34,155 nucleotides of DNA from an uncultured Pelagibacteraceae bacterium (GTDB lineage Bacteria; Pseudomonadota; Alphaproteobacteria; Pelagibacterales; Pelagibacteraceae), in NCBI GenBank assembly GCA_902609235.1, contig CACLRF010000010.1:1-34155 (forward strand), written 5' to 3'. Shown here in pieces: positions 5,503 to 13,974 of the stretch. A model generated the notes under the pieces. That model saw only the letters and a list, made by a program, of their open reading frames with translations, was not told the DNA's origin and ran no database searches. The position numbers and the translations under genes were made by a program. The first letter of the stretch is position 1. Each line of letters starts with the position of its first letter.

Positions 5503-7568
5503 TGTCAGAGTTTTTTTTAGAATTATTTAGTGAGGAAATACCCTCAAATCTTCAACAAAATTTAAGGGAGGACTTACTTAAAAGTTTTATCGATTTTTTT
5601 TTAGAAAAATCAATTTTATTTAAAAAAAGCTCATCATACTCAACACCAAACAGACTAGTGGTATTGTTTGAAGGAGTTCAAAAAAATGTTGTACTAAAAT
5701 CTGTGGAGATTAAAGGTCCAAATATCAAGTCACCAGAGGTAGCACTAGAAGGGTTTGTTAAGTCAAATAAAATATTAAAAAAGGATCTCTACCAAAAAAA
5801 AACCGATAAAGGAGAATTTTATTTTTTCAAGACAAAATCAAAAAAATTGCATACACATGAATTGCTAGAGGAATTTATCCCAATATTGTTAAGTAAAATT
5901 CAATGGAAAAAATCAATGTATTGGGGAACTTTTGACCTAAATTGGGGGAGACCGTTAAAATCAATTCTAGCTGTATTTGATAAAAAAAAATTAAATTTTG
6001 ATTTTCATCACCTAACATCTTCTAACTCAACTTTTGTTGATAAAGAATTTGAGGAAAATAAAAAGTCATTTTCAGAATTTAAAAATTATAAAAGTTTTTT
6101 TAAAAAAATTGACATTATCGTTGATCACAACGAAAGAAAAAAGTTAATAGAAAAAAAATTCAACAATATATTAAAAAATAAAAATATTAAGATTCAACAT
6201 AATCCTAGATTGCTTAATGAGGTTGTAGATTTAACAGATCAACCAAATATCCTTCTTTGTGAATTTGATAAGAAATTTTTGAATATTCCAGAAGAAATAT
6301 TAATTATTACCATGCAACACCATCAAAAATATTTCCCTATATTTGATAATAAAGAAAATATTACTAATGAGTTTTTAGTAGTTGCAAACAAAAAGGATAA
6401 AAAGGGATTAATTAAATTAGGAAATGAAAGAGTGGTCGAAGCAAGATTAAGTGACGCAGAATTTTTTTGGAAAAAAGACAAATCTCAAAATATGGTAAAA
6501 AAAGTTACTGAATTAAAATCAATAAATTATTTTAGAGGATTAGGAAGTTATTTTGATAAAGCTCAAAGAATGAGAAAATTGGGTGGAATGATATCTGATG
6601 AACTTTTAATCAGTAAAGAAAAAGTTGAATTATCAGCATCAATTTGTAAAGTTGATTTGTTATCAGAGCTAGTGGGTGAATTCCCAGAATTACAAGGTGT
6701 GATGGGAGGTTATTTTGCTATTGCACAAGGTTTTGATAAAGATTTGGCTCTGGCCATAAGAGAGCAATATTTACCCACAGGATCAGGCTCAAGAGTCCCA
6801 AAAAAACCATTTAGCATAGCCCTTTCTTTGGCTGATAAGATAGACACTTTAGTTGGTTTTTTTGGTTTAAATCAAAAGCCAACAAGTTCTAAAGATCCAT
6901 ATGCTCTAAGAAGATTGGCATTAGGAGTAATAAGAATAATAGTTGAAAATAAAAAAGATTTTAAAGTGAAAGATTTAATTAATTATTCTTTAAGCCTCTA
7001 TTTAGATCAAGGTTTTGAAATTGATAATAAATCTTTACAAAATGAGTTATCAGATTTTTTAATGGATAGATTAAAATACCACATGAAGGAAGAAAATATT
7101 AGAAATGATATAGTTCAAGCATCAACCAGTTCTTTTAATTTAGATCAATCTGTTATTATTTTTAATAAAGCTAAACATTTAAATAAAATTATTAATAAAC
7201 CAGATGGTTTAGATATTATTGCAAGCTATAAAAGAGCCTCAAACATTTTAGACGGTGAATTAAAAAAAAATAAAATAGAATTATCAAATACAACTGACCC
7301 TGGTATTTTTAAAACTGAGTTAGAAAAAAACCTATTTAAAAAAATTAGTGAATTAAGGAAATATTTTTCAGGCATTAATAAAGATGAAAATTATGTTCAA
7401 ACATTGGACAATTTAGCTAGTGTTAAAAGAGAGGTTTTTGACTTTTTTGATAATGTAATTGTGAACGAGGATGATCCAGTCGTAAAGAAGAATAGGCTGG
7501 AACTAATCCAAATGATGTGTAAAACGTTCAATAATTATGTTAATTTTTCTCTAATCGACTCCCATTAA
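5502..7568 (+). CDS. glyS: glycyl-tRNA synthetase beta subunit
   Basis: GlyS is the tRNA-binding beta subunit that pairs with GlyQ. The 688-residue protein matches the family in length and begins with the typical FFLELFSEEIPS. Other landmarks are WGRPLKSI, LLCEFDKKFLNIPEEILIITMQHHQKYFP, RVVEARLSDAEFFWKKD, LSELVGEFPELQGVMGGYFA and the HD-like and DALR-type C-terminal region from about residue 500 onward. It is joined to glyQ and to ppdK by one-base TAATG overlaps, indicating translational coupling across three genes. It is more lysine/asparagine-rich than ppdK, as expected of a fast-drifting RNA-binding subunit in an AT-rich genome. Confidence 0.96.
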   Translation: MSEFFLELFSEEIPSNLQQNLREDLLKSFIDFFLEKSILFKKSSSYSTPNRLVVLFEGVQKNVVLKSVEIKGPNIKSPEVALEGFVKSNKILKKDLYQKKTDKGEFYFFKTKSKKLHTHELLEEFIPILLSKIQWKKSMYWGTFDLNWGRPLKSILAVFDKKKLNFDFHHLTSSNSTFVDKEFEENKKSFSEFKNYKSFFKKIDIIVDHNERKKLIEKKFNNILKNKNIKIQHNPRLLNEVVDLTDQPNILLCEFDKKFLNIPEEILIITMQHHQKYFPIFDNKENITNEFLVVANKKDKKGLIKLGNERVVEARLSDAEFFWKKDKSQNMVKKVTELKSINYFRGLGSYFDKAQRMRKLGGMISDELLISKEKVELSASICKVDLLSELVGEFPELQGVMGGYFAIAQGFDKDLALAIREQYLPTGSGSRVPKKPFSIALSLADKIDTLVGFFGLNQKPTSSKDPYALRRLALGVIRIIVENKKDFKVKDLINYSLSLYLDQGFEIDNKSLQNELSDFLMDRLKYHMKEENIRNDIVQASTSSFNLDQSVIIFNKAKHLNKIINKPDGLDIIASYKRASNILDGELKKNKIELSNTTDPGIFKTELEKNLFKKISELRKYFSGINKDENYVQTLDNLASVKREVFDFFDNVIVNEDDPVVKKNRLELIQMMCKTFNNYVNFSLIDSH

Positions 7569-10234
7569 TGAAAAAACTTATATTAAACTTTAATTCTAAG
7601 GATAGTAAAAAAATTAAAAGTCCTAAAAACTTTTTAGGAGGAAAAGGTGCTAATCTCTCTGAAATGGGAAGAATGGGTCTTCCAGTGCCCCCTGGTTTTA
7701 CAATATCTACAAAAGTTTGTGAAATTTTTTATAAGGATAAAAAAAAATTAAATAAAAATTTAATTTCTCAAATTAAAAAAGAATTAAAATTAATCGAAAA
7801 AGATGTTTCTAAGAAATTTGGGGACTTAAAAAATCCACTTTTGTTGTCTGTGCGGTCTGGTGCAAGAGTATCAATGCCAGGTATGATGGATACTATTTTA
7901 AATCTTGGTCTAAACGATAAAACAGTCAAAGCTTTAGCAATTAAAACTTCAAATGGAAGATTTGCCAAAGACAGTTATAGAAGATTCATTCAAATGTACG
8001 GTAATGTTGTAATGGGTGTAGAAGCTTATTATTTTGAGGAATTAATTGAAAATTATAAACTTACGAAAGGTGTTTTGTTAGATACAGATTTAGATGAAAG
8101 TGATTGGGATGGATTAATTGAAGATTTTAAAAGAACAGTAAGAGAAAAGGCAAAAAAAGATTTTCCCCAAGATGTTCATGAACAATTGCTGGGAGCAATA
8201 AGTGCAGTATTTTTATCGTGGGAAAGTAATAGAGCAAAAGTTTACAGAAAACTAAATCAAATCCCAGCCGAGTGGGGAACTGCAGTAAATGTTCAATCAA
8301 TGGTTTTTGGAAATATGGGTGATGATTGTGCAACAGGAGTTGTGTTTACAAGAAATCCATCAGATGGATCAAATGAAATATATGGTGAGTATTTAATTAA
8401 TGCGCAAGGAGAGGATGTTGTAGCGGGTACAAGGACACCTCAATACATAACAAAAAAAGCTAGGAGAGACGCTAAAGTAAAAGAATTATCAATGGAAGAG
8501 TCTATGCCTAAAGTCTTTAAAGAACTTCAAAAAATTTTGAAAAAATTAGAGATGCATTACAAAGATATGCAAGATGTAGAGTTTACAGTTGAAAATAGTA
8601 AACTATGGATGCTGCAAACAAGATCAGGAAAAAGAACAGCAAAATCAGCAGTCAAGATCGCAGTTGATATGGTTAAAGAAAAATTAATCTCTAAAATGGA
8701 AGCTGTATTAAGAATTGACCCAAATTCTTTAGACGCACTTTTGCACCCTACTTTGAATGAAAAAAGCTCAATTAATGTAATAGCAAATGGATTGCCAGCA
8801 TCACCGGGTGCAGTCAGCGGTAAAGTTGTATTTACATCAGAAGAAGCTGAAAGATTAACCGCAATGATGCAAGATACAATTTTGGTTAGAGTAGAGACCT
8901 CTCCAGAAGATATACAAGGAATGCATGCTGCTAAAGGAATTTTGACTGCTAGAGGAGGAATGACAAGTCATGCAGCTGTTGTTGCAAGAGGTATGGGAAG
9001 ACCATGTGTATCAGGATCAAGTGAAATTGATATAAATTATGAAAATAAATCTTTTAAAACTTCTTCAATGGAGATTAAAGAGGGAGACGTAATCACTATT
9101 GATGGATCAACTGGAAGAATTATCGCTGGAAGTGTTTCAACTGTGAAGCCTGAAATATCTGGTGATTTTTCCAAGCTAATGTTTTGGGCAGATAGTTTTA
9201 GAAAATTAAAAGTAAGAACAAATTCTGAAACTCCAAAAGATACCAAAACAGCAAAAGATTTTGGTGCAGAGGGTATTGGATTATGCAGAACTGAACATAT
9301 GTTTTTTGATGAAGAACGGATTTTATCTGTAAGAGAAATGATATTATCTAAAACAAAAGAAGACAGAGCAATAGCATTACAAAAACTGTTACCGCATCAA
9401 AGAAAAGATTTTATAGACATTTTTAAAATCATGAGTGGATTACCAGTCACAATTAGATTGTTGGACCCACCGTTACATGAATTTTTACCACGTACAGAAA
9501 AGGAAATTAATGAGGTTGCTAGTATAGTTAATCTTCCAATTAAAGAGGTTGAGTCAAGAATTGAAGAACTCCATGAGCAAAATCCTATGTTAGGTCATAG
9601 AGGATGTCGTCTAGGAATATCTTTTCCTGAAATTTATGAAATGCAATGCAAAGCAATATTTCAAGCTTTGGTTTACCTTAAAAAAAATAAAATTAAATCT
9701 GCATTTCCTGAAATAATGATACCTTTAGTATCTACAGAGGCTGAGATTAAAATAATGAAAGAATTAGTAATTAGAACTGCTAGTCAAGTTCAACAAGAAA
9801 ATAAATTGAAAATAGAGTTTTTAGTAGGAACGATGATTGAATTACCTAGAGCGGCAATAAAAGCAAAGGAGATCGCTAAGCATGCAGAATTCTTTAGTTT
9901 TGGAACAAATGATTTAACTCAAACTACTTTTGGGATCAGTAGAGATGATAGTGGTAAATTTTTAAATGATTATTTAGAAAACAAAATATTTTCTGTTGAT
10001 CCTTTTGTTTCAATAGATGAAGGAGTTTCAGATTTAGTTGAAATAGCAGTAGAAAAAGGGCGGAAACAAAACAAAAATCTAAAACTAGGTATCTGTGGAG
10101 AGCATGGAGGAGACCCTCGTAGTATATCCTTTTGTTCTAATGCAGGATTGAATTATGTTTCTTGTTCACCTTATAGAGTTCCTGTTGCGAGGTTGGCTGC
10201 CGCTCAAGCTGAAATTAAAAAAAAATTAAATTAA
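7568..10234 (+). CDS. ppdK: pyruvate, phosphate dikinase
   Basis: PPDK interconverts pyruvate, ATP and phosphate with phosphoenolpyruvate, AMP and pyrophosphate. The 888-residue protein has the full three-domain plan. First comes the ATP-grasp domain (FLGGKGANLSEM near 22-33, SVRSGARVSMPGMMDT near 94-109). Next is the swivelling domain with the phospho-acceptor His468 in GGMTSHAAVVARGMG. Last is the PEP/pyruvate barrel with EGIGLCRTEHMF, GTMIELPRAA, SFGTNDLTQTTFG and GICGEHGGDP, which holds the catalytic Cys. In such bacteria it may serve gluconeogenesis or a pyrophosphate-linked glycolysis; the sequence does not say which. The stop codon abuts the duplicated tmRNA tail at 10235, whose GGGGC/GCCCC hairpin could also act as a terminator for this operon. 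Confidence 0.97.
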   Translation: MKKLILNFNSKDSKKIKSPKNFLGGKGANLSEMGRMGLPVPPGFTISTKVCEIFYKDKKKLNKNLISQIKKELKLIEKDVSKKFGDLKNPLLLSVRSGARVSMPGMMDTILNLGLNDKTVKALAIKTSNGRFAKDSYRRFIQMYGNVVMGVEAYYFEELIENYKLTKGVLLDTDLDESDWDGLIEDFKRTVREKAKKDFPQDVHEQLLGAISAVFLSWESNRAKVYRKLNQIPAEWGTAVNVQSMVFGNMGDDCATGVVFTRNPSDGSNEIYGEYLINAQGEDVVAGTRTPQYITKKARRDAKVKELSMEESMPKVFKELQKILKKLEMHYKDMQDVEFTVENSKLWMLQTRSGKRTAKSAVKIAVDMVKEKLISKMEAVLRIDPNSLDALLHPTLNEKSSINVIANGLPASPGAVSGKVVFTSEEAERLTAMMQDTILVRVETSPEDIQGMHAAKGILTARGGMTSHAAVVARGMGRPCVSGSSEIDINYENKSFKTSSMEIKEGDVITIDGSTGRIIAGSVSTVKPEISGDFSKLMFWADSFRKLKVRTNSETPKDTKTAKDFGAEGIGLCRTEHMFFDEERILSVREMILSKTKEDRAIALQKLLPHQRKDFIDIFKIMSGLPVTIRLLDPPLHEFLPRTEKEINEVASIVNLPIKEVESRIEELHEQNPMLGHRGCRLGISFPEIYEMQCKAIFQALVYLKKNKIKSAFPEIMIPLVSTEAEIKIMKELVIRTASQVQQENKLKIEFLVGTMIELPRAAIKAKEIAKHAEFFSFGTNDLTQTTFGISRDDSGKFLNDYLENKIFSVDPFVSIDEGVSDLVEIAVEKGRKQNKNLKLGICGEHGGDPRSISFCSNAGLNYVSCSPYRVPVARLAAAQAEIKKKLN

Positions 10235-10263
10235 GTAGGGGGCGTTCTGTTGCCAGGTGCCCC
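10235..10263 (-). repeat. detached copy of the tmRNA gene 3' end (left outer direct repeat)
   Basis: This 29-base element is the same as 12724-12751 apart from one extra G in a G run. On the minus strand it reads GGGGCACCTGGCAACAG and then a GCCCC closing stem, the conserved 3' end of the alphaproteobacterial coding piece of tmRNA. No tmRNA body is attached: just upstream on the minus strand the similarity fades after a few bases. On the other side comes a T-rich run derived from the end of ppdK, as in an intrinsic terminator. I read it as the original tmRNA 3' end, displaced by insertion of the intervening DNA. Confidence 0.85.
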
Positions 10264-10330
10264 GAACTTTGTTTCAATAATCCTTATATTGCAACAATCA
10301 GCAATAATCAAATCACACAAATTACAGAAT

Positions 10331-10353
10331 AATGCCGACCATAGGCCGACCAA
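10331..10353 (+). repeat. inner 23-bp direct repeat, left copy
   Basis: This 23-base sequence recurs at 12648-12670 with a single mismatch (T versus C at its twelfth base). Each copy contains two tandem GCCGACCA units separated by three bases. It is GC-rich for this chromosome. The two copies bracket the four-gene cassette tightly: this one ends 43 bases before the first start codon, and the other begins inside the last stop codon. It may be a recombinase binding site or an element end; no function is shown by the sequence. Confidence 0.75.
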
Positions 10354-10364
10354 AAATCTGGTCG
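10347..10364. other. hairpin/inverted repeat at the cassette's left end
   Basis: CGACCA, a six-base loop (aaaatc) and TGGTCG form a perfect six-base-pair stem that reuses the end of the left inner repeat. The right inner repeat is not followed by such an arm, so this is unique to the left end. It could be a recombination site arm or simply a transcript hairpin before the first cassette gene. Confidence 0.5.
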
Positions 10365-10396
10365 TCACAGGGTATAGGATTTGATAACCTTTGATC

Positions 10397-11794
10397 ATGG
10401 ATCCATTAAAGTTTGTTAAAGATAACACCTATGGAATTAATAAGTTAAATATTCCACCTGATCAGAAAGTTGATAAATTACTTGTAAGATTTTCAGGTAT
10501 ATGTGCAGCAGTTGCTGTTCAACCAATACCATTTGCAGATATTTTTATTTTAACACCAATACAACTTTATATGGGAACTCTTATTGCAGAGGCAAGAGGA
10601 TACAAATTTTCTATGTCTCAAATTTGTAAAGAAATTTTAGGCCTAATTGGATTAGCTTACTTGGCACAACAAACTGCAATAGGTTTGTATAAGACTGTCT
10701 TACCCTTTTTAGGTGCGATAACAACTATACCTTTAGTGTTTGTTCTAACTTATGCAATTGGGAAAGTAATGAATTACTACTTTGTGGCTAAAACTGAGGG
10801 AAAAAAAATTACTAAAGAAGATTTAATTAAGGCGTTTAAGCAAGCCAGAAAAGATGCAAAGAAAAATTTTAGCAAGGATGAGATTAAAAAGAAAACAAAT
10901 GAAGCAAGAGAAGAAATGAAAAATTACAAACCTAAAGCAAAAGAGTTTGTACAAAAAAATATTGATGAATTAGCAGTAATATCAGTTATGCATAAATTGA
11001 GAGGTGGTCAAAAAATAGTAACAGAGGAAGATAATATTATACTTGAAGCAATGATAAGATCATCAAATAAGATAACTGATTTAGACAGCGCTATTGAATT
11101 TGCAAAAATAACAGCCGCAAAAGGGACAGAATCCTTAATGGGAGCTGCAAATAATATAAAAGGAATTGCTCACGAACTAATTTATGTAAAAACTGAAAAC
11201 GAGGATGGTGATACTGTTTTTGCATTTATGCCTGAAGATACCAACAATCCCCAGTTTGATGTTCTGACTATAAATTTAGAAACAGGTGAACAAAAGTGGG
11301 AGCAGTTAAAAACAACATTAAATTCAGATCATATAAATAATTGGATTGAAAAATATCCTGGGTCTGAGGGTAGTTTAAAAGTAAATACCGAAATGGCTGA
11401 TAAACTTGGATTCGAAAGCTCAGGAGTAAGCGATAAAGAGCTGTCTGTGAATGTTGATAAATTTCTCGATAAACTGATAGAAATGGATCAGAGCACTTTA
11501 TCTAAAATTGTTGAGACATCACCTCCACTTACAATTATTGCTGCATCGTTTGTAGTTTATGGATTACATAAAAGATATAAAAAAAAAGAAATCTCAAAAA
11601 AACAATTTATATATATGTCAGCAAAAATAACTGGAATTAAAGCAGCAAAAATAATCATGTTATTATCGGTGTTAGCACTTCCAGTAGTAGGACAAGTCGT
11701 TGGTGTCTATCTTATTGCTTCACTAATGTTTTCTGTAATAGGAATATTTGAGATAAAAGAAGAAAAATTATTATTACCAGCACCAGTCAAATGA
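10397..11794 (+). CDS. unknown membrane protein: DUF697-like N-terminus, possible PD-(D/E)XK-like middle, C-terminal membrane segment
   Basis: I do not recognise this 465-residue protein as a named gene. Residues 31-129 are hydrophobic, with AVAVQPIPFADIFILTPIQ and TYAIGKVMNYYF, a pattern like the DUF697 membrane domain. Residues 134-185 are a highly charged, probably coiled helix. The soluble middle (about 235-360) has Glu260, FDV with Asp288, and QLK with Lys305, followed by SSGVSDKEL. The spacing E...D...QxK resembles the core of PD-(D/E)XK nuclease folds, but this is inference from motif shape. Residues 375-392 and 415-451 look like membrane segments. The ATG at 10397 is preferred over a TTG at 10391; no clear ribosome site is seen. 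It is the first gene of a coupled four-gene cassette inserted beside the tmRNA gene. Confidence 0.72.
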   Translation: MDPLKFVKDNTYGINKLNIPPDQKVDKLLVRFSGICAAVAVQPIPFADIFILTPIQLYMGTLIAEARGYKFSMSQICKEILGLIGLAYLAQQTAIGLYKTVLPFLGAITTIPLVFVLTYAIGKVMNYYFVAKTEGKKITKEDLIKAFKQARKDAKKNFSKDEIKKKTNEAREEMKNYKPKAKEFVQKNIDELAVISVMHKLRGGQKIVTEEDNIILEAMIRSSNKITDLDSAIEFAKITAAKGTESLMGAANNIKGIAHELIYVKTENEDGDTVFAFMPEDTNNPQFDVLTINLETGEQKWEQLKTTLNSDHINNWIEKYPGSEGSLKVNTEMADKLGFESSGVSDKELSVNVDKFLDKLIEMDQSTLSKIVETSPPLTIIAASFVVYGLHKRYKKKEISKKQFIYMSAKITGIKAAKIIMLLSVLALPVVGQVVGVYLIASLMFSVIGIFEIKEEKLLLPAPVK

Positions 11795-11853
11795 TTGAAG
11801 CGTTAATCATTGTGGAATTAACTTTTTCAGTATGGTATTTTGCAAATAAATAA
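11791..11853 (+). CDS. 20-residue hydrophobic micro-ORF, coupled to both neighbours
   Basis: This small frame starts at an ATG overlapping the preceding stop (ATGA) and ends with a TAA that shares one base with the next start (TAATG). The product begins MIEALIIVELTFSVWYF and ends ANK, one hydrophobic helix long enough to cross or lie in a membrane. Coding potential cannot be shown for so short a frame. However, the two exact overlaps fill the only gap in an otherwise completely coupled operon, which would be a notable coincidence for a chance frame. Role unknown; it could be a membrane peptide or just a translational relay. Confidence 0.5.
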   Translation: MIEALIIVELTFSVWYFANK

Positions 11854-12041
11854 TGGAAACTTGGCAAATAATATTAGCAATAATTATAGTTGGTCTATCA
11901 ATCGTTATGCCAATTTATTATTCATATAAAAAGAAGAAATTAGCTCAGCAATTAAAAGAAGGAAGAGAAGTTACTGAGAGAGAAAAGATTAGGGTTTATA
12001 TGGATAATATAAATCAGAAGTTTAGAGATAAGCATAAATGA
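11853..12041 (+). CDS. small single-span membrane protein, unknown
   Basis: This 62-residue protein has one N-terminal membrane helix (about residues 5-24, IILAIIIVGLSIVMPIYYSY). A positively charged tail follows (KKKKLAQQLKEG ... REKIRVYMDNINQKFRDKHK), which by the positive-inside rule should lie in the cytoplasm and looks helical. It resembles the many short accessory membrane proteins of unknown role. It is coupled upstream to the micro-ORF (TAATG) and downstream to the secreted protein gene (ATGA), so it is probably part of the same envelope-located assembly. Confidence 0.65.
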   Translation: METWQIILAIIIVGLSIVMPIYYSYKKKKLAQQLKEGREVTEREKIRVYMDNINQKFRDKHK

Positions 12042-12649
12042 AAAAACTTTTAGGGGCTATGGTTTTGGGATTATTTGCAAGTTTTAATAACTCAATTGCA
12101 GATCATACTAATGAACACACTATAACTGTTAGTTGCCAGGTAGCTGTAGGACATTCAAGAGGTACAGAAGATATTGGGCCAGTTGACATTAAATTTAATA
12201 AAAAAGATGTACGTATCAGCTGGATGGGAGATATTTCTAAAATTGTAAAATTGCAAAATTTAAGACCTGGTTCTTCATACTTCTCGGTAAAAAAAATATT
12301 TGATAATTATAGAAATGGAAAAAAAACAGATAACTACATGGATTTTTATAAAAAGTATCAACCAGTCTCGTTTATAAATTATGCCATGAGACCTTACAAA
12401 AATATTAGCACAACGGATAGTACTTTAGTCGCATTATCAGAAAAGTATCAAGATGAAGATCCTTTGTTAAGAGATTTATCCTTAATCATTTATTTAAACA
12501 GAGTTGAAGCAGTAGGTCGGATGATACTAAGAATGGAATATAATAAAAATATTAGATATCCAGTGATGAACTATAGTGATGGAACTAAATACTTCGAGCT
12601 ACAAACTTATTTGCTTGAGTATTGCAAATTAAAGAAGAAAAAGTTTTAA
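12038..12649 (+). CDS. secreted (periplasmic) protein of unknown function
   Basis: This 203-residue protein has a convincing Sec signal peptide: MKK, then a hydrophobic core LLGAMVLGLFASF, with likely cleavage after the A of NNSIA near residue 21. There is no lipobox. The mature part has two cysteines, Cys33 and Cys196, near its two ends, which could form a disulfide joining N- and C-terminus. It has no motif I know, and it ends in a lysine-rich tail (KLKKKKF). It overlaps the previous gene by four bases (ATGA) and its stop codon runs into the right inner repeat. Context suggests it works with the three membrane proteins before it. Confidence 0.7.
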   Translation: MKKLLGAMVLGLFASFNNSIADHTNEHTITVSCQVAVGHSRGTEDIGPVDIKFNKKDVRISWMGDISKIVKLQNLRPGSSYFSVKKIFDNYRNGKKTDNYMDFYKKYQPVSFINYAMRPYKNISTTDSTLVALSEKYQDEDPLLRDLSLIIYLNRVEAVGRMILRMEYNKNIRYPVMNYSDGTKYFELQTYLLEYCKLKKKKF

Positions 12650-12670
12650 TGCCGACCACAGGCCGACCAA
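12648..12670 (+). repeat. inner 23-bp direct repeat, right copy
   Basis: This copy is identical to 10331-10353 except for one base, in the same orientation, again with two GCCGACCA units three bases apart. It begins within the stop codon of the last cassette gene. Fifty-three bases separate it from the right outer (tmRNA tail) repeat, against 67 on the left side; those two spacers are not alike. Confidence 0.75.
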
Positions 12671-12723
12671 CTCAGTTGTATTTTTCAAATAACGTTGATA
12701 CTGCAAACTAAATTAACAAATGA

Positions 12724-12751
12724 GTAGGGGCGTTCTGTTGCCAGGTGCCCC
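12724..12751 (-). repeat. tmRNA 3' end, right outer direct repeat (functional copy)
   Basis: This is the true 3' end of the tmRNA gene (minus strand), including the GGGGC (12747-12751 complement) and GCCCC (12727-12731 complement) closing stem. Twenty-eight of 29 aligned positions agree with 10235-10263. The intact copy is the one next to the tag-coding body, and the displaced one abuts ppdK, as expected when DNA enters at the 3' end of an RNA gene and brings its own copy of that end. Confidence 0.85.
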
Positions 12752-12984
12752 AGACCCCGTTTGCTTAATTAACTAAGTTAATTAGGCAGCAAGTGCGTAA
12801 CTTTCGTTAGCAATTATAAATTAGCCCGTTACGGTGGAACAATCCCGAACGAAAGAATAGCCTTTAGTCACCCGTCGAATCTAGTTCACCCCCATAAGTT
12901 GTAATGGTGGAGGTGGTGGGTACTGCCCCCACGTCCGCAATGGTTATTACGAAATTCGTTTATCGTCGTAGTTGGAAAACCAAC
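12725..12984 (-). ncRNA. ssrA: tmRNA, two-piece (circularly permuted), tag ANESYALAA
   Basis: tmRNA rescues stalled ribosomes and tags the product for proteolysis. On the minus strand the acceptor piece comes first. It has a T-arm (stem GTGGG/CCCAC, 12916-12932), then CACCTCC (12909-12915), the discriminator A and CCA (12905-12907). After only 11 bases the coding piece starts at 12893 with GGGGGTGAACTAGATTCGAC, the typical tmRNA 5' end. GGGGGTG pairs with CACCTCC over seven base pairs with G-U at position 3, the alanine identity element. The tag frame runs from the resume codon GCT at 12811 to TAA at 12782 and encodes ANESYALAA. The 3' hairpin is at 12727-12751. The permuted order is the known alphaproteobacterial form. 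The transcript ends are inferred: the 5' end is placed at a GTTGG/CCAAC hairpin (12971-12984). Confidence 0.93.
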
Positions 12985-12990
12985 ATTATT

Positions 12991-13018
12991 AATATAAAAG
13001 TAATTACAACAGATTCAA
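12991..13018 (-). promoter_or_regulatory. putative promoter of the tmRNA gene
   Basis: Reading the minus strand, TTGAAT (13018-13013) and TATATT (12996-12991) are 16 bases apart. The expected start near 12984 coincides with the outer base of the GTTGG-TTTT-CCAAC hairpin at the head of the acceptor piece. The site lies in the short gap between the tmRNA gene and thyX, so the divergent thyX promoter must overlap it (a TATAAA at 12993-12998 on the plus strand is a candidate -10). Confidence 0.5.
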
Positions 13019-13026
13019 TAACAATC

Positions 13027-13974
13027 ATGAAATTAACTAAGGAACAACATGAGGAAATAAAAAATCAACAATCTCAAAGTAATCAAACAAAAAGAGTTAC
13101 TGCTCCTGAGCTTGAAAAAATACTATATGAAGCAATTCCAGCGCTGGATCATGGTTTTGTAAGAGTTGTTGATTATATGGGTGATGACACATCCATAGTT
13201 CAATCAGCAAGAGTATCGTACGGAAAAGGAACCAAACAAGTTTCAACTGACAAAGGTTTAATAAAATATTTGATGAGGCATTGGCACAGCACTCCATTCG
13301 AAATGTGTGAAATTAAATATCATGTTAAGCTTCCAATATTTATTGCAAGACAATGGATTAGACATAGAACTGCAAATGTTAATGAATATTCTGCTAGATA
13401 TTCAATTTTAGACAAAGAATTTTATTTGCCATCACAAGAAAATTTAGCTGCTCAATCAACTAGTAACCGACAGGGTAGAGGAGATGTCTTAGAAGGACAA
13501 CAGGCAGAGGAAGTTTTGGAACTTTTAAAAAGTGATGCAGAGAGAACTTATGATAATTATGAGACTATGCTCAATGAAAAATTTGATGGATCAACTATTG
13601 ACGAAAACAAAAAAGGCTTAGCGAGAGAACTTGCAAGAATGAATTTAACACTAAATACCTATACTCAATGGTACTGGAAAACTGATTTATTAAACTTAAT
13701 GAATTTTTTAAGATTAAGAGCTGATAGTCATGCTCAATATGAAATTAGAGTTTATGCCGACATAATGCTGGATACCGTAAAAAAGTGGGTTCCCACAACT
13801 TATGATGCTTTTATGGATTATAGAGTTGGTGGCACTGAGGTTTCTGCAAAAGGAAAGTTAATTATTCAAAAACTCATTAAAGGTGAGAACGTAGATGTTG
13901 AAAGTTCTGGCCTGTCTAAAAGAGAGTGGAATGAATTAATGACTGCTTTTGATCTTAAAGATAAGTTGATTTAA
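13027..13974 (+). CDS. thyX: flavin-dependent thymidylate synthase
   Basis: ThyX methylates dUMP to dTMP with methylenetetrahydrofolate, FAD and NADPH, replacing ThyA. The signature RHR-x7-S is present as [11 protein letters not shown] at residues 112-122, followed by ARYS. Substrate-site stretches such as [11 protein letters not shown] (83-93) and [21 protein letters not shown] also fit. The 315-residue form starting at the ATG at 13027 is preferred: the same frame stays open back to 12904, but that extension lies inside the tmRNA gene and encodes nothing conserved. The protein is longer than many ThyX (about 220-250), with a lysine-rich C-terminal extension after the core and about 40 extra N-terminal residues. 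Its 3' end overlaps the convergent mrp gene by 20 bases. Confidence 0.94.

Follow-up and report, generated by a model that had tools for sequence, protein, structure and literature searches.

In the window, a 34,155-nt stretch of DNA from an uncultured Pelagibacteraceae bacterium, three open reading frames lie between a complete tmRNA gene and a displaced copy of its 3' end (Table 1). The 25-nt core of that end, GGGGCGTTCTGTTGCCAGGTGCCCC (hereafter R), is found exactly at both borders; no further copy occurs in the window with up to three mismatches, and none is expected by chance (no match in 100 shuffles). The left repeat reaches 10235 with one extra G, as the first-pass annotation had reported for the 28-base tmRNA end, and this copy abuts the stop of ppdK and lacks a tmRNA body according to ARAGORN and Rfam, both as previously described. 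The name ppdK is that annotation's and is used here presumptively. A second direct repeat, TGCCGACCAYAGGCCGACCA, lies just inside each copy of R, at 10333 and 12650, where none is expected. This second repeat had been overlooked in the first reading. The Rfam alpha_tmRNA model matches the minus strand from 13022 to 12723 with 225 bits, and ARAGORN calls a tmRNA gene at the matching position, with the tag ANESYALAA. By its place in the Rfam alignment, R is the tail of a permuted two-piece gene, in what we take to be the coding-RNA piece and not in the tRNA-like part.

Table 1. Features of the cassette and its flanks, in window coordinates.
Feature	Position	Strand	Basis or remark
ppdK	7568..10234	+	distal flank of site; ORF; adjoins tmRNA end in relatives
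left R (predicted attachment core), a displaced copy of the 3' end of the tmRNA gene	10239..10263	.	exact 25-nt repeat
left arm, GAACTTTGTTTCAATAATCC... type	10264..10332	+	common to cassettes with other cargo
left direct site pair GCCGACC, 11 nt apart (predicted integrase arm-type sites)	10333..10352	+	repeat and pair searches
possible third, inverted half-site TGGTCG	10359..10365	-	read by eye
cargo gene 1, 465 aa from ATG, predicted membrane protein	10397..11794	+	ORF
cargo gene 2, 62 aa, predicted small membrane protein	11853..12041	+	ORF
cargo gene 3, 203 aa, probably secreted (by eye)	12038..12649	+	ORF
right direct site pair GCCGACC, 11 nt apart, sequence equal to left pair	12650..12669	+	
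right arm TTGTATTTTTCAAATAACGTTGATA...AACAAATGAGTA	12670..12726	+	common to other cassettes
right R, 3' end of tmRNA gene proper	12727..12751	.	Rfam match and exact repeat
tmRNA gene (ssrA), permuted two-piece, alphaproteobacterial type	12723..13022	-	Rfam RF01849, ARAGORN
thyX	13027..13974	+	proximal flank of site; Pfam Thy1, synteny

Four genes had been counted between the repeats. We find three plausible ones (~465, 62 and 203 aa, all on the plus strand) and discount a 65-aa frame on the minus strand (10231-10428) that covers the repeat itself. Pfam searches place none of the three in an integrase family, in line with the first-pass annotation, and no PF00589 match occurs in the assembly from which the window comes (63.5% complete).

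We examined the ppdK-tmRNA junction in 36 fetched loci, the window included, where a single contig carries both ppdK and the tmRNA end. The gap is shorter than 200 nt in four loci, a second R abuts ppdK in five (window included) and lies further inside in seven; nadC-nadA is present in 15 loci, once with a second R and 14 times without, and the remaining five hold other sequence and no second R. When joined, the flanks of the window cassette (425 nt) match the empty sites of three relatives over nearly their full length (94.1%, 92.7% and 85.1%), and 415 nt of them match that of a fourth at 84.1%; empty sites of this kind are those of L056, L090 and L070. Other cargo occupies the junction at L189, L192, L202, L187 and L186. 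The first-pass annotation had predicted that relatives would show empty sites or other cargo between the same repeats if foreign DNA had entered at the tmRNA 3' end; both are present, and the window cassette is an insertion between two copies of that end. Nor are the same genes and both repeats common to all relatives, as the 465-aa gene is unmatched at E 1e-20 in 299 other genomes of the genus, many of them incomplete. A GTDB scan located it at three loci, in the single cells AG-447-D04 and AG-435-B08.

R is widespread in the genus, being present in 169 of 201 genomes and in all 29 near-complete ones, while the reversed control gave 0 in every row. (The 3' end of tRNA-Leu, tried as a control for repeated tDNA ends, was uninformative, as it occurs in only 2 of the 201 genomes.) Two or more copies are found in 19 of the first 60 relatives (G001-G060). 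We mapped 62 distinct R-to-R intervals, some as tandem arrays with up to five R in a row (L167), at the tmRNA gene and also next to convergent gene ends such as those of rnhA and pnp; 48 of the 62 span 0.5-3 kb. Open reading frames of at least 100 aa in these intervals lie on the strand of R in 71 cases and on the opposite strand in 18, a gene-then-R bias with exceptions, and in many maps R sits between convergent genes or downstream of genes. Seven fetched genomes have an ACCCGG core, with 18 of 19 copies carrying ACCCGG or one further change; this core is seen in none of 44 other multi-copy genomes. Single, cargo-free copies of R are seen at rnhA, and 22 of the 29 near-complete genomes have no R near the end of that gene. 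Thus R has also arrived at sites where no R stood before, and simple R x R integration does not account for this.

Cassette ends were analysed in the 37 intervals with a recognisable arm; the other 25 of 62 were dropped as shorter than 400 nt or having no recognisable left arm, and since some of these have a gene on the other strand, not all copies of R need be cassette ends. A pair of 7-8-nt sites is found in 57 of 74 end zones and is spaced by exactly 11 nt in 55 of the 57, although the search admitted spacings of 8-20 nt. In control zones from the interior of these cassettes, pairs occur in 25 of 72, 11 of 70, 16 of 62 and 12 of 58 cases, with scattered spacings and at most 2 at 11 nt. The site sequence varies between cassettes and tends to agree at the two ends of one cassette. 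At the group level, the best left-right match within a cassette averages 13.5, compared with 9.66 (sd 0.51, maximum 12.27) when right ends are permuted within arm families, and none of 20,000 permutations reached the observed value. For 27 cassettes the own right end is among the best 6 of 37, and 10 of the 37 have no good match. Pairs were detected at both ends in only 24 of 37 cassettes, four of these having unlike pairs (L170 twice, L176 and L178), and at L201 the best match falls outside the site pair. The 465-aa gene has differing site pairs in the window and in AG-447-D04 despite 95% DNA identity, so that an exchange between cargo and ends apparently took place fairly recently. The ends of L059 and L073 are broken. 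By eye, inverted copies resembling the TGGTCG half-site are also visible at the left ends of several other cassettes. A role for IHF sites was dropped from consideration: none of the 37 cassettes has an exact match to the IHF consensus in its arms, and 7 of 37 right arms match with one mismatch.

What enzyme could read such ends? In the first 46 genomes, a search for PF00589 genes found none near R. Tyrosine recombinases with frames of 310-327 aa occur in 31 of these 46 genomes and never near R, and we found no evidence for host Xer as the mover. Across 399 genomes of the genus, we found only two intact integrases next to R, plus one remnant, against many cassettes. At L186 the reading frame of a 343-aa integrase (PF00589, E 6.7e-21) starts 66 nt from the R of the tmRNA gene, inside a 6.1-kb R-flanked element that also encodes a DUF5906 protein. 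Likewise, the frame of an integrase at L237, 52% identical to that of L186, starts 55 nt from the tmRNA R. Among 60 retrieved homologue loci from the genus and the class, R lies in the stretch only at these two and at a short N-terminal remnant (L231/L243); the remaining 57 are without R, and 29 of them hold a tRNA gene. Further integrase fragments lie away from R, at L238 and L239. Five residues are invariant in 18 integrase sequences and fit R-H-R-H-Y, which we take to be the catalytic set of these enzymes. The CCGACCA site type of the L186 element, an imperfect pair there (5 of 7), recurs free of integrase in the window, at L196 and at the left end of L170. The GACGCC type of L237, of which only the right end is seen, recurs in the same way at L049, at L203 (as AACGCC) and at the left end of L059.

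A viral helper was also considered. The 17-nt core occurs in 46 IMG/VR stretches, some with flanks that look like phage-carried tmRNA genes (compare PMC9004378). Eleven of the 46 records carry a tyrosine integrase, and in 10 of these the match lies some 140 nt away from the core. The GAACTTTGT arm is absent from the 43 nt past the core in all 46 stretches, a search with the L186 integrase found no relative in viral contigs (an alignment of its family gave matches of 25-33% among the 80 listed), and the 45-nt end is unmatched in INPHARED phages. From these searches we rejected a viral origin of the helper.

The first-pass annotation had left three possibilities: a remnant, a passively mobilised unit, or movement by an unknown enzyme. 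The matching ends of the window cassette, together with tmRNA-adjacent tyrosine integrases inside elements with like ends in the genus, make passive mobilisation in trans the best reading. We consider it quite probable, judging from sequence, that the segment 10235-12751 is a recombinase-free three-gene cassette whose paired sites were recognised in trans: a tyrosine integrase specific to tmRNA, like those of rare elements in related genomes, would have bound them with its arm-binding domain. The SAR11 cassettes as a group, nearly all recombinase-free, are likely non-autonomous integrative cassettes mobilised in trans by the integrase of rare elements. R would be the crossover core and the 11-nt pairs the arm-type sites, and an integrase would move cassettes of matching site type. 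Circles integrating at any resident R could build the tandem arrays, and excision could leave the single, cargo-free copies at rnhA. More tentatively, with chances somewhat short of even, there would be a genus-wide, address-coded traffic, in which the tmRNA tail, placed at further convergent gene ends too, is a docking sequence shared by all cassettes and the 11-nt-phased end pair an exchangeable address for whichever integrase has the matching arm-binding domain.

The cassettes might instead be dead remnants: satellites or islands in decay, whose integrase was lost once they had inserted and which are now immobile, the arrays being a fossil record of integrase-bearing elements. The rarity of integrase-bearing copies, the integrase fragments beside R and elsewhere, the broken ends and the failure to find a helper in the window's incomplete assembly all fit this account. 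However, random decay would erase the left-right matching, which is far above chance in 37 cassettes of differing cargo, and the apparent recent reshuffling around the 465-aa gene also speaks against it; we regard it as unlikely.

A different proposal is that R mainly serves as a compact transcription terminator working in both directions and spreading among convergent gene pairs, with cargo differences arising by ordinary homologous recombination. Folding gives a stable R hairpin on both strands, which bears out that part of the terminator suggested by the first-pass annotation, and the position of R in many maps would suit this role. The terminator scan makes no call at R, although it accepts loops of 3-8 nt only and may exclude the 15-nt loop of R. 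A terminator would need neither a conserved 15-nt loop, nor a loop change common to tmRNA and cassettes in one lineage, nor 11-nt-spaced sites matched between two ends, and 25 nt is short for RecA-dependent exchange. We think this proposal improbable. That R resembles attC, folding as a single strand on which an integron integrase acts, seems very improbable: the arrays, the gene-then-R order with its strand bias and the imperfect palindrome of R recall integrons, but PF00589-type genes (a general profile, not IntI's own) are absent from the window, its incomplete assembly and the R loci of the first 46 genomes, the R-adjacent integrase found later lies inside an R-flanked element in a phage-type position, and many cassettes have arms on both sides, which integron cassettes are not known to have.

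Several known systems are similar. Additive flexible genomic islands are described at tRNA genes in Ca. Methylopumilus (fGI-2, PMC10872708) and Ca. Actinomarinales (fGI1, PMC7771536); as there, one site holds differing cassettes in related strains, bordered by direct repeats of the gene end. Unlike in those islands, the SAR11 target is a tmRNA gene, and the available passages of the two accounts mention no internal site pairs, end-to-end match or gene-end copies at unrelated convergent junctions. In the Dehalococcoides account (PMC3146451), tandem islands follow the ssrA gene, with 20-bp repeats of its 3' end as borders; 15 islands lack an integration module and are suggested to be cis-mobilisable. 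Those islands use a serine recombinase, DsiB, and enter the T-loop region, whereas the SAR11 elements pair a tyrosine integrase with the coding-RNA tail of a two-piece tmRNA, and their intervals are mostly 0.5-3 kb, many with their own paired sites. As in the classical tyrosine-integrase islands of Islander, among whose targets the tmRNA gene shows stronger enrichment than every type of tRNA (PMC4383910), a displaced tDNA 3' fragment lies at the distal end of the window cassette in the right orientation; the integrase gene inside the element is missing. Islander filters for such a gene and accepts tandems only if each member has one, so the SAR11 cassettes would be filtered out. Tycheposons of Prochlorococcus, as outlined in PMC10872708, likewise bring cargo to tRNA genes of streamlined marine bacteria, but they span 4-200 kb with a tyrosine recombinase, whereas SAR11 cassettes hold a single gene to a few and that of the window has 2.5 kb, no recombinase and a tmRNA site. 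With R, arms and site pairs at both ends and no recombinase of its own, the window cassette has the make-up of a non-autonomous element. Among the open-licence papers listed in topic searches, no title or opening of an abstract describes this SAR11 tmRNA-end cassette site. The cassettes are best read as a variant of additive islands and cis-mobilisable elements, the variant itself being new.

SAR11 are among the most abundant cells on Earth, and gene exchange in their streamlined genomes is poorly known. If our reading is right, one cassette site is common to much of the genus, and a few rare integrase elements could mobilise large integrase-free cassette pools, some with likely phage-defence cargo. 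The address code would predict which cassettes move together, cargo could change address by recombination, and lateral transfer in SAR11 would become testable from 20 nt at each cassette end. Island finders that depend on an integrase would overlook cassettes of this kind, and comparable traffic may therefore go on at further tRNA and tmRNA genes. For bacteria that resist engineering, the integrase with its paired sites might also serve as a site-specific tool.

As for the cargo, relatives of gene 1 are named YcjF or DUF697 family by their sources, and its product matches PADLOC PDC-M72B (E 8e-8) and has a predicted structure with a mean pLDDT of 57.7. Genes 2 and 3 match no Pfam family over the cut-off; gene 3 has 6 homologues. 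Surveying the 97 proteins that the 62 intervals encode in frames of 90 aa or more, we saw no serine recombinase among the 25 of 69 Pfam families listed. The families listed there and among 25 of 163 from PADLOC include trypsin-like proteases, methyltransferases, type I restriction genes, MADS-like proteins and other candidate defence families. PHROGs flagged one integrase among the cargo proteins, located in L186.

The 3' end of the tmRNA gene was proposed to be repeated beside the ppdK stop, and our search bears this out: a 25-nt sequence, R, occurs in both places and in none of the shuffled control windows. Three plus-strand genes lie between the repeats. The host is a SAR11 bacterium: across 9.1 kb it shares 95.8% identity with AG-447-D04, a Pelagibacteraceae single cell. 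We screened same-genus genomes for R and retrieved the surrounding stretches. ppdK and tmRNA shared a contig in 36 loci, window included, while 29 further tmRNA loci stop short of ppdK. The gap was below 200 nt in four of the 36; nadC-nadA filled it without a second R in 14 and with one in a single locus; R directly abutted ppdK in five, the window among them, and lay deeper in the gap in seven; in the remaining five, other sequence was present and a second R was not found. Thus, the comparison of this junction across SAR11 put forward in the first-pass annotation reveals both cassette-free and differently filled sites. Joining the window flanks by script gave a 425-nt virtual empty site, which matched relatives over practically its full length (L056, 94.1%; L090, 92.7%; L070, 85.1%) or across 415 nt (L065, 84.1%). 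These loci represent the empty site, and the L056, L090 and L070 matches uphold the earlier claim that foreign DNA was inserted at the tmRNA 3' end. Of 300 genus genomes, only the window's own yielded the first cargo gene, which encodes 465 aa; the single cells AG-447-D04 and AG-435-B08 have it too.

Locations of the features discussed (L numbers are stretches retrieved from relatives or viral contigs)
Feature	Location	Strand	Remark
R beside ppdK	window 10239-10263		directly past ppdK stop
R of tmRNA, GGGGCGTTCTGTTGCCAGGTGCCCC	window 12727-12751		within tmRNA gene 3' end
tmRNA gene	window 13022-12723	minus	alphaproteobacterial two-piece type (Rfam; also called by ARAGORN)
Direct repeat TGCCGACCAYAGGCCGACCA	window 10333 and 12650		immediately internal to R at either end
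465-aa gene	window 10397-11794	plus	first cargo gene
Short R unit	L045:9653-10019; L068:2352-2719		80-aa minus-strand ORF (L045)
DUF5906 gene	L186:8028-10226		733 aa
Integrase fragment	L238:9940-10286		residues 168-232 of L186-type family
Viral contigs, core and tyrosine integrase	L094, L095, L103, L108, L115, L125, L128, L131, L132, L134, L135
Viral contigs, tmRNA gene body-like sequence past R	L091, L102, L107, L110, L112, L117, L121, L122, L127, L130, L133, L136		by eye

R is widespread in the genus: with up to 3 mismatches it occurs in 169 of 201 genomes, and none of the 29 near-complete genomes lacks it. Reversed R gave 0 matches throughout. A search for its exact 17-nt core, a stricter criterion than up to 3 mismatches, gave no hit in 40 genomes from a different family within the order. 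With as many as 4 mismatches tolerated and gaps limited to 7 kb, we called 62 distinct R-R intervals in 98 stretches, one of which (L167) holds five consecutive R copies. Arrays are over-represented in this set, since the second batch of stretches was picked for multiple copies; among the first 60 relatives, which were unselected, 19 had at least two. ORFs of at least 100 aa in the intervals lie mostly on the R strand (71 versus 18 opposite). Two stretches share a near-identical short unit flanked by two R copies without the usual arm, which is a second type of R unit.

R also occurs elsewhere, with or without cargo: next to rnhA, where the gene on the other side encodes a redoxin or threonine synthase; in the gap separating a fabI-like gene from pnp; and in the vicinity of an M23 peptidase gene. 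At a tolerance of up to 6 mismatches, 7 of the 29 near-complete genomes have R no farther than 1.5 kb from the rnhA gene end, and 2 have it equally close to the pnp gene end. In many others the neighboring genes directly adjoin, indicating that R was gained at the rnhA and pnp places. Recombination between R copies does not account for its first arrival there.

The arms, the sequences just inside R, fall into few types at the left, many starting GAACTTTGT or AGACCGTGCTTCT, and into few at the right. Farther inward lies a pair of 7-8-nt direct sites, predicted to be arm-type sites of an integrase. For 37 cassettes, we examined the 74 end zones for pairs at any spacing from 8 to 20 nt; the other 25 of the 62 intervals, shorter than 400 nt or without a recognizable arm, were left out. 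Pairs were present in 57 zones, 55 of them at exactly 11 nt spacing, whereas interior control zones of the same cassettes had pairs in 25/72, 11/70, 16/62 and 12/58, with scattered spacings and at most two at 11. Pairs tend to sit about 60, 70 or 80 nt from R at the left end and about 65 or 76 nt from it at the right, in steps close to one helical turn. The site sequence varies among cassettes, yet tends to match between both ends of one. The mean best left-right match was 13.5, versus 9.66 (sd 0.51) when right ends were permuted inside arm families; none of 20,000 shuffles scored as high, and interior controls scored 8.1 to 8.4. In 27 cassettes the own right end ranked sixth or better out of 37; the other 10 failed. 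Pairs were detected at both ends in 24 of the 37, four of these with unlike pairs. AG-447-D04 has the same cargo gene (DNA 95% identical) and arm start, but another, ACGTAC-like pair; 43 nt ending in R match the window right arm plus R at 97.7%, a pattern as would be left by tandem insertion.

In one genome group the tmRNA ends in TTACCCGG in place of TTGCCAGG. In seven fetched genomes of this group, 18 of 19 R copies have the TTACCCGG version or one more change, the exception being a decayed copy with 4 mismatches; the version was in none of the R copies from 44 other multi-copy genomes. Tyrosine recombinases require identical overlap sequences in both partners, a requirement that cassette cores tracking the host tmRNA would fit.

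A search for PF00589 near R gave no match in the first 46 genomes. In genome G247, a 6.1-kb R-flanked element (L186) encodes a 343-aa integrase (PF00589, E 6.7e-21) whose ORF starts 66 nt from the tmRNA R; its N-terminal region, by family, is predicted to be an arm-binding domain. The element also encodes a DUF5906 protein, which suggests a phage-satellite-like replication gene. Searching 399 genomes of the genus and 385 of the class for relatives of the integrase gave 67 matches, 60 with a locus retrieved and 7 without. R was in the stretch for only three loci: L186 itself; L208/L237, whose 52% identical integrase lies immediately beside tmRNA; and L231/L243, with a short N-terminal remnant. 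The remaining 57 had no R in the stretch; each was a short fragment or showed no more than 35% identity. A tRNA gene was present in 29 of them (for example Met, Val, Leu, Pro, Ser, Arg). The L186 element has an imperfect CCGACCA-like pair, a type also seen on integrase-free cassettes: those of the window and L196, and L170 at its left end. The L237 element, only the right end of which is on the contig, has GACGCC; integrase-free cassettes with this type are L049, L203 (as AACGCC) and, at the left end, L059.

We propose that a cassette circle would bear right arm-R-left arm, and that an integrase, acting in trans and bound to the site pairs and R, would join it to any resident R. Repeated integration would build tandem arrays, and excision would leave one R. 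The window cassette is predicted to behave like a cis-mobilizable element; it lacks the integrase of Islander-type islands, and its membership among integrons is not supported. The nearest systems are additive islands with tRNA-end repeats (PMC10872708, PMC7771536), the ssrA islands of Dehalococcoides, of which some lack an integration module (PMC3146451), and tDNA islands (PMC4383910). In Pelagibacterales, a transferred phn operon has been noted to have tyrosine recombinases and tRNA genes next to it (PMC12416821), so integrase-linked transfer at SAR11 tRNAs is already suspected. Within the literature searched, matched cassette-specific site pairs, secondary R places and a lineage-matched core appear new.

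Of the 46 viral records that contain the tmRNA-end core, 11 encode a tyrosine integrase (frames of 353-460 aa). For 10 of these, the integrase match ends roughly 140 nt away from the core; the same tmRNA tail is therefore likely used by a further group of integrases. Twelve viral contigs with tmRNA-like sequence agree with published two-piece tmRNAs of pelagiphages and their relatives. In L238 an integrase fragment lies directly against a duplicate thyX C-terminus, which suggests a former element whose site was the thyX 3' end. Finally, tRNA-Leu(tag) lies near integrases with 436-447 aa frames (G150:C5 and G275:C10); as its 3' end was found in only 2 of 201 genomes, this tRNA-Leu is probably carried by the element.
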